NCBI GenBank assembly: GCA_018064525.1
Contig: JAGHVB010000004.1
Coordinates: forward strand, 1 to 56,710
From: Candidatus Treponema merdequi
Lineage (GTDB): Bacteria; Spirochaetota; Spirochaetia; Treponematales; Treponemataceae
Reading direction: 5' to 3'
DNA length: 56,710 nt
The notes under the pieces were generated by a model, which had not been told where the DNA came from, ran no database searches, and saw only the letters and a list, made by a program, of their open reading frames with translations. Positions 54,909 through 56,630 of this stretch are shown here, piece by piece. The first letter of the stretch is position 1, and every line of letters starts with the position of its first letter. The position numbers and the translations under genes were made by a program.

Positions 54909-54922
54909 AAATCAGTTGTGAT

Positions 54923-54962
54923 AAAAAAACTCCTCAAAAGTTTTTTTTTTCTTTTGGGGAGT
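54923..54962 (-). terminator. Intrinsic terminator downstream of asnS
   Basis: Read on the minus strand: ACTCCCCAAAAG (54962-54951), loop of ten A, CTTTTGAGGAGT (54940-54929; one G·T pair), then a run of T ending at 54923. It lies about 170 bases after the asnS stop codon, beyond the degenerate asnS-tail repeat. Confidence 0.75.
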
Positions 54963-54970
54963 CTCTATAA

Positions 54971-55072
54971 GTCGTTCATTTATTGGAACTTTTTGAGTTT
55001 TTATTCCGGAAAACTCAACTTTCTTAAGACCTTAAAAATCTGCAAGTTTTGGTGCGCGTGGATATGGAATAA
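54971..55072 (-). pseudogene. Degenerate tandem copy of the asnS 3' end
   Basis: This 102-base unit repeats 55073-55175 at roughly three-quarters identity by eye, with one indel. Read on the minus strand it encodes Ile-Pro-Tyr-Pro-Arg-Ala-Pro-Lys-Leu-Ala-Asp-Phe-stop, the same 12 residues as the AsnS C-terminus, while six of those codons differ only at synonymous positions. Each unit also contains the inverted pair GAGTTTT/AAAACTC downstream of the stop. It appears to be the last remnant of a second asnS-like gene; only the 3' tail remains before the sequence passes into the downstream flank of the intact gene. Confidence 0.7.
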
Positions 55073-55175
55073 GCCGTTCGCTTACACGAACTCTTCGAGT
55101 TTTCCTTATCGGAAAACTCGACTTCCTCAAGACCTTAGAAATCTGCTAACTTCGGAGCTCTTGGATATGGAATAA
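55073..55175. repeat. Second repeat unit, containing the real asnS 3' end and its downstream flank
   Basis: Partner of 54971-55072 in direct tandem. It contains the last 13 codons and stop of asnS plus about 60 bases of downstream sequence. The latter includes the hairpin GAGTTTTCC (55097-55105)/GGAAAACTC (55111-55119), a stronger version of the one in the first copy. Confidence 0.75.
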
Positions 55176-56595
55176 CATCGCGGATGTTTTCCATTCCAGT
55201 TACGTATCTGATAAGACGTTCAAATCCGAGACCAAAGCCTGAGTGTGGAACTGTTCCGAATCTGCGGAGGTCTAAGAACCACTGATAGTTTGACATATCC
55301 ATCTTGCGTTCTTCACATGCTGCAAGAAGTTTGTCATAGTTTTCTTCGCGTTCAGAACCACCGATCAATTCACCAATGCCAGGAACAAGAACATCAACTG
55401 CTTTAACAGTTTTTCCATCATCATTCTGTTTCATGTAGAATGATTTTATTTCTTTCGGATAGTTGAAAACCATTACAGGACACCCGAAGATTTTTTCTGT
55501 CAAATATCTTTCATGTTCAGTTGCAATGTCGCATCCCCAGTAAGGAGAGAATTCAAATTTAGCTCCGTTCTTTTCTGCTTCTTTTAATTTTTCAATTGCG
55601 TCAGTATATGAAATACGGACAAACTTTGCATTTGCAACTTTTGTAAGACTTTCAATCAAGCCCGGCTGAATTCTCTTGTCAAAAAATTCAAGGTCAGCGC
55701 GGCATTTTGTCAAAGCCCAGTTTAAAAGATATTTAACAAAGTCTTCCTGAATATCCATGTCATCATCAAGATCATAGAATGCCATTTCAGGTTCAATCAT
55801 CCAGAACTCAGCAAGGTGGCGAGGTGTGTTGGAATTTTCTGCACGGAATGTCGGTCCGAATGTATAAACACGAGAGAGAGCTGTTGCAAGTGTTTCTGCT
55901 TCGAGCTGACCAGAAACTGTGAGCGATGCTTTTTTTCCAAAGAAGTCTTTTGAGTAATCTACAATTTTGTGTGCGTCTTCGATTTTCATTCCGCCATTTC
56001 CGGCTTTAACACCGAGTTCTGCAATCTTTTCAAGAGAGAGAGTAGTTACCTGGAACATTTCTCCGGCACCTTCACAGTCAGAGCATGTGATTTCCGGAGC
56101 GTTGATGTACTGAAAGCCTCTTTCCTGAAAGAATGAATGAACAGCAAATGCCATCTGGTTTCTTACGCGGTAAACTGCACCGAATGTGTTTGTGCGTGCT
56201 CTGAGGTGAGCGTTCTCACGTAAATATTCCATTGACATTTTATTTTTCTGCAAAGGATATTCTTCTGGATTACATGTTCCAAGGCAAGTAAGATTTTCAA
56301 GAGTAACTTCGACTGCCTGACCTGAAGCAGGTGATTCAATTAAAACACCTTCTGCCCGAACTGATGCACCTGTGTTGAGCTTTTTAAGTTCAGCTTCGAT
56401 ATTATTTACATTAGCGTTATTTGAGGGAGCGTTGCGGTCAAATGTAAGCTGAATGTTTGCAAAACATGAGCCGTCATTTACCTGAATGAAAACTAAATTT
56501 TTTGAATCGCGAACTGTGCGAATCCATCCGCAGACCTTGACTTTCTGGCCTTCCGGTTTTGTTGTAAGTAAATCTTTAATAAGTGTTGGTACCAT
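55135..56595 (-). CDS. asnS: Asparaginyl-tRNA synthetase
   Basis: Class IIb synthetase charging tRNA-Asn. About 486 residues: N-terminal OB-fold anticodon-binding domain (KVKVCGWIRTVRDSKNLVFIQVNDGS, 18-43), then the catalytic core with motif 2 (FGPTFRAENSNTPRHLAEFWMIEPEM) and motif 3 (GFGLGFERLIRYVTG near the C-terminus), ending in RAPKLADF. SGQLEAETLA supplies the Asn-binding loop, which distinguishes it from AspRS. GGAGGG (56603-56608) lies 7 bases before the ATG at 56595; an ATG at 56610 would translate this site, so it is rejected. Some bacteria lack AsnRS and use the amidation route; this one has the direct route. Confidence 0.96.
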   Translation of the reverse strand: MVPTLIKDLLTTKPEGQKVKVCGWIRTVRDSKNLVFIQVNDGSCFANIQLTFDRNAPSNNANVNNIEAELKKLNTGASVRAEGVLIESPASGQAVEVTLENLTCLGTCNPEEYPLQKNKMSMEYLRENAHLRARTNTFGAVYRVRNQMAFAVHSFFQERGFQYINAPEITCSDCEGAGEMFQVTTLSLEKIAELGVKAGNGGMKIEDAHKIVDYSKDFFGKKASLTVSGQLEAETLATALSRVYTFGPTFRAENSNTPRHLAEFWMIEPEMAFYDLDDDMDIQEDFVKYLLNWALTKCRADLEFFDKRIQPGLIESLTKVANAKFVRISYTDAIEKLKEAEKNGAKFEFSPYWGCDIATEHERYLTEKIFGCPVMVFNYPKEIKSFYMKQNDDGKTVKAVDVLVPGIGELIGGSEREENYDKLLAACEERKMDMSNYQWFLDLRRFGTVPHSGFGLGFERLIRYVTGMENIRDVIPYPRAPKLADF

Positions 56596-56630
56596 TTTTG
56601 TACCCTCCATAAATGTAAATAATGAGTGAT

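Follow-up and report, generated by a model that had tools for sequence, protein, structure and literature searches.

A short double-hairpin element between a working gene tail and a silently different second tail at asnS and other core genes of Treponema

Integrative elements that use the 3' ends of genes as attachment sites restore the gene end with a copy of their own, and the old end stays on the far side. Minimal mobile elements are reportedly stretches of DNA that move by homologous recombination between conserved genes. The GTAG- and CGTC-tagged superfamilies of REP elements are described as short palindromic repeats lying mostly downstream of genes, the CGTC repeats being without a dedicated transposase and including Spirochaetes (Di Nocera et al., 2013; PMC3733652). 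Neither "duplicat" nor "Treponema" appears as a term in the available text of that paper. Rickettsia palindromic elements (RPEs), small palindromic sequences of about 150 bp, are reported to invade genes that apparently still work (PMC10969869). The minimal mobile elements of Neisseria (Saunders and Snyder, 2002) are named and cited in PMC1538595. A search by title and abstract opening, thin on subscription papers, returned no published account of hairpin elements between duplicated gene tails, or of the element described here, H.

Alignment of copies revealed that H was 44–51 nt in length with two hairpins, laid out as h1 (CGAGTTT...AAACTCG), a linker that was usually GTAA, a variable h2 and a right end that was usually CGAC, with a few copies ending in CGTC (e.g., in G169 and G161). 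The stems of h2 varied yet paired, with 5.66 of 6 pairs formed compared to 3.64 with shuffled partners (104 distinct copies), and positions 8–10 of h1 formed 2.57 of 3 pairs compared to 1.10 when shuffled (44 copies). The pattern AGTTTN{3,26}AAACTYGGTAAGN{4,28}CGAC was matched in 102 of 200 genomes of the genus, with one match for the reversed control, and in 21 of 146 genomes of an order-wide sample, every one belonging to the family of Candidatus Treponema merdequi, the source of the DNA analyzed here (genome G000). H resembles REP-like repeats, being likewise short, palindromic and sited at gene ends, but it differs from them in size, copy number and RAYT association. Tagged REP elements are single palindromes of 20–40 bp present in high copy number, whereas H has two hairpins, gives 0–19 pattern matches per genome (a lower bound) and is accompanied by duplicated gene tails. 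Their tag, GTAG or CGTC, lies at one end; the usual motifs of H are GTAA and CGAC, next to the few copies ending in CGTC. Based on a hand count, H was carried by 35 of 61 genomes with a Y1 (RAYT) transposase and by 67 of 139 others, showing no association, and this transposase was rejected as the mobilizer of H. Reading 1,915 nt around the Y1 gene of G000 itself by eye also revealed no copy. Carriage by phages was also rejected, with 0 and 4 matches in viral contigs, the four being without the second hairpin (by eye).

Nor did H have the terminal inverted repeats of a MITE, as its ends were not inverted repeats of each other (by eye, in the alignment). The repeats that might count as a target-site duplication extended 17–91 nt from H to the stop of the relic and were polar and mostly imperfect, with one perfect over its tail codons. 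Two copies, read by eye, lay in frame inside genes (L150, G019:C5; L164, G010:C202), flavodoxin-like and GTPase-like, one of them with a duplicated segment. In this they may resemble RPEs, although an RPE, as described, adds a peptide inside the protein, whereas with H the gene receives a new end and the former one stays in place. The H unit shares with integrative elements of gene 3' ends that the end is restored by the incoming copy and that the old end lies beyond it. It differs in being under 110 nt, without an integrase, and in serving many target genes with one H family; site-specific integrative elements encode their own recombinase, and the inserted unit here is 88–103 nt. Compared with minimal mobile elements, the right-hand homology arm of the H unit would be a short duplicated gene tail.

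Orthologues of asnS were present in all 59 genomes compared, some matches being partial at contig ends. In the window, i.e., the whole stretch of 56,710 nt that was analyzed, the asnS end region contained the following features.

55135–56610, minus strand: asnS (asparaginyl-tRNA synthetase), the working gene, an ORF of 491 aa; product name from the first-pass annotation
55135–55173, minus strand: working asnS tail, 12 codons IPYPRAPKLADF plus stop
55073–55121, minus strand: double-hairpin element H between both tails, aligned with the dispersed family (h1 55096–55120; linker 55092–55095; h2 55076–55091; right end GGC 55073–55075)
55032–55070, minus strand: relic tail, the same 12 residues through other codons
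54971–55019, minus strand: second, decayed H, 3' of the relic, its stem changes paired with those of the first H (h1 54993–55018; h2 54974–54989; right end GAC 54971–54973)
54922–54963, no strand assigned: terminator-like hairpin with A/T runs on both sides, closing the asnS end region (fold z −4.64 for 54925–54980)

Read along the minus strand, the asnS stop is followed by H, the relic tail, the decayed H and the terminator-like hairpin. The first H folded at −23.9 kcal/mol (z −4.33, far better than shuffled sequence) and the decayed one at −9.6 kcal/mol (z −1.22). Tandem Repeats Finder placed an array at 54986–55175 with a score of 259, one of three arrays in the window, and the direct repeat itself (55007–55072 and 55110–55175) had 83% identity over 66 nt. 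The part shared by the relic and the native tail extended to 55072, directly at the right end of H. The first-pass annotation had described two adjacent units of about 102 bases starting at 54971; the repeat is real, with a period of 103, and the position given as its start is the end of the decayed H that follows the relic. Its codon count was confirmed, as both tails encode IPYPRAPKLADF* and differ in 6 of 12 codons (8 nt) and 0 residues. Because a single change to a tail of this kind is silent in only about 23–25% of cases, the all-silent differences are not those of free drift, in agreement with the earlier reasoning that drift should have brought replacements. An assembly artefact, which had been allowed for, is unlikely, since other assemblies show this arrangement too, among them one whose title names a Treponema strain (C6A8) and not a MAG. 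The repeat in the window is a stacked case of a tail-plus-hairpin unit. No known RNA family was matched at gathering score; a sub-threshold match to the histidine operon leader (His_leader; 54923–55055, minus strand; 34.6 bits, gathering 49) probably arose by chance on AT-rich hairpins.

Scanning a degenerate asnS-tail pattern over 200 genomes of the genus gave matches in 174, and a nearby second tail was found in 10 (G000, G007, G075, G139, G172, G177, G216, G169, G032, and G219), the second tails of G032 and G219 needing 1 and 2 mismatches, respectively. In five species (G075, G139, G172, G177, and G216), the working tail plus H formed an 88-nt unit with 1–9 differences between species, whereas the upstream 60-nt blocks differed by up to 23 and the DNA 3' of the relic was unrelated (37–51 of 60). 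Between G177 and G075, for example, 5 of 88 positions differed in the unit, compared to 13, 19, 22, and 12 in four upstream 60-nt blocks and 43 of 60 in the DNA beyond the relic. G177 and G216, which are near relatives, do not form an independent pair, because their upstream blocks agree. Relative to G015 and G059, both carry a diverged stretch of about 180 nt upstream of the tail, indicating that an incoming tract can exceed the length of the unit. The relics resembled native tails of relatives: that of G177 was the tail of G059 in 12 of 12 codons, and that of G172, together with the DNA following it, matched the single-tailed G024. Active recoding beyond normal divergence was rejected, tail pairs differing in 4–12 of 12 codons with a mean of 7.0 for random species pairs. 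At the asnS end of L106 (G032:C44), only a 14-nt remnant lay between two tails, suggesting that the hairpins were lost after insertion.

At the ends of core genes, H sits between the working tail on its left and a second, usually silently different copy that starts exactly at its right end. Among 144 H places, a non-random and not independent set (listed matches from several searches plus further regions, several being the same gene in related genomes and five asnS copies being in by construction), the tail of the left gene was repeated codon for codon on the right in 23, compared to 0–2 with re-paired flanks (10 shuffles). Without the five asnS copies, 18 of 139 places had a duplicated tail. 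A frame-free nucleotide test at 18 of 24 matches likewise gave 23 of 144, with 0.81 expected, and by the codon test the other 121 places had no duplicated tail. Copies of H that did not fit the pattern, those at asnS of G000, G007, G169, and G032, are not included in the 144. The repeated tail was read backwards from a stop 17–91 nt after H and mostly filled the whole stretch from H to that stop; codons in the 23 tail pairs were identical in 97 cases, silently different in 130 and replaced in 8. About a dozen core genes were affected (asnS, aspS, purH, tkt, ilvD, gpmI, pgk, asnB, pckG, groEL, pta, and ppdK), the names groEL, pta, and ppdK being assigned by reading translations; the gene at L162 is presumably mnmG. 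The genome of the window had a second such site at groEL, with three MGGMY tails and two H copies whose stems differed by paired changes (L156, G000:C86:98044–98070). At pta, H and a second tail were found at 8 of 30 loci read, the best-scoring ones among 95 matching genomes, and the relics began at two different positions. Two cases break a restriction to gene ends, L150, inside a gene, and L176 (G069), at a gene start, where H is antisense to the gene and the first dozen codons are duplicated (MEYKTLSNGIKM vs. MDYVTLSNGIKM).

The G169 assembly contained two asnS contigs, one filled and one empty, with nearly identical flanks. Alignment of both revealed a clean 93-nt insertion in the filled allele, flanked by GATG and TAATTCC. 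The tail within it and the relic disagree in 6 of 12 codons; the relic itself departs from the tail of the empty allele in a single codon. At pta, G215 carries inserted DNA compared with its near relative G025, with about 48 nt of altered sequence before it, and the DNA farther out is nearly identical on both sides. In individual lineages, asnS and pta have thus acquired the unit together with the tail that it provides today, and the former tail persists as a still-coding relic.

We propose that fragments made of a gene end plus H recombine into resident genes, through homology on the left and an exact join at the right end of H, whereby the native tail is demoted; we put the probability of this reading at roughly 0.65. 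The working tail has the look of an import from a different strain or species, with the spare being the ending that the gene had before, still readable. A fragment from a related strain or species would carry the 3' part of the gene and end at H. Homologous pairing with the resident gene would take place on the left, at times converting some upstream DNA, and the right end of H would be joined to resident DNA roughly 17–60 nt upstream of the stop. The protein would remain unchanged, because the fragment brings its own tail. Once in place, the unit may be passed on by ordinary homologous recombination, the relic serving as the homology arm on the right; this would account for the relic having stayed readable. 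For the genome of the window, horizontal entry would follow by analogy, as an empty allele is known for other genomes and none for G000.

Alternatively, H could insert in the manner of any miniature transposon, its target-site duplication being long (17–60 nt), and the working copy could later have been overwritten by recombination with other strains, leaving only silent differences. The perfect duplication at ppdK of G070, which suggests that some units form locally, would be consistent with this, as would a 20-odd-nt perfect repeat at pta of G144 and the groEL repeat of G014, in which the non-coding part is identical and the coding part differs silently. Symmetry would be expected of a target-site duplication, however, and the duplications were polar, with the gene reading into H in sense in 23 cases and no genuine antisense case, the lone antisense match (L200) being the same pckG repeat read on the other strand. 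For comparison, 69 sense and 34 antisense gene ends faced H under a somewhat different openness rule. The newcomer tail of G169 also stands apart from its relic, whereas the nearby asnS sequence is nearly identical to the empty allele, and a transposon appears unlikely overall. Recombination with one precise end, at the right of H, and one homologous end, as proposed above, would be polar when the donors are other species, since only genes would stay alike across species.

An RNA route, in which reverse transcription of an mRNA that ends at H yields cDNA for recombination into its gene of origin, would likewise give a precise end at H, a variable homologous left end and a polarity that follows gene direction. 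The genes concerned are core genes whose expression is probably high (e.g., groEL, pgk, pckG, pta, tkt, and ppdK). Such a route is nonetheless quite improbable, given that the tails derive from other lineages, not from the cell's own message, and that H is antisense to the gene in the gene-start case L176.

The nearest relative of the window genome, G007 (99% AsnRS identity), has the same arrangement with a spacing of 99 nt, and because this is common to both genomes, the unit is probably older than their split. The two relics differ at 9 of 39 nt and 0 residues, where 24.8% of single changes would be silent, which points to a relic that was probably kept or refreshed as coding sequence since then. 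Some states (stop codon, TAT or TAC, GCAGAT or GCTGAC) are common to both units within each genome, hinting at conversion between units. Both observations would suit a relic with a function of its own, as an RNA or as a tail used after excision, and directly selected. The unit lengths of 88 and 103 nt compared to 93 and 99 nt do not keep the frame, however, which also makes stop-codon read-through into the relic unlikely, and relics at other genes carry replacements (pckG at L200; gpmI at L132 and L198), so that direct selection is very improbable. The origin put forward in the first-pass annotation, a complete second asnS mostly deleted by recombination, accords with two tails that differ only silently and is almost certainly wrong, since none of the 59 genomes compared has the full-length tandem asnS it looked for in relatives, the extra DNA is about 90 nt including a hairpin element common to other genes, and the filled and empty alleles of G169 contradict it. 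What stands of that account is that the two tails have different histories, that the relic was once a real coding tail and that recombination with a diverged homologue took part. A dispersed repeat unrelated to asnS, named there as grounds for refutation, describes the hairpin half, which is dispersed at many genes, but not the tail half, which is asnS-specific.

If fragments ending at H do recombine in this manner, what seemed an odd repeat becomes a recombination process open to test, precise at one end and homologous at the other. Very small DNA elements could then enter essential genes of many species harmlessly, and synonymous tail differences in core genes of the genus would be importable in blocks under 100 nt, which would affect codon-based dating and marker phylogenies. 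More tentatively, and with the odds somewhat against it, these units may represent a class of homology-aimed mobile unit, in which a short hairpin element carries the recoded last codons of a core gene, inserts at that gene in other species, takes over its ending with the protein unchanged, and keeps the displaced ending as an arm for the next transfer. Such a unit, if real, would be a natural counterpart of recoded rescue cassettes.

Other repeats were observed at these gene ends and beside H. At the asnS 3' end of L110 (G115), an inverted repeat formed by the KLADF codons spans the stop, and pieces resembling the tail occur again downstream. The last codons and stop of pta are an arm of an inverted repeat in L309 (G144) and L316 (G161), with a paired T/A change between the two genomes and an Ala-to-Ser change in the tail. 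At L262, L267, and L268 (G123), H adjoins a different short repeat, TCATTGCGAGCG.AGCGAAGCAATC, or lies between two copies of it, as though it had entered that repeat.
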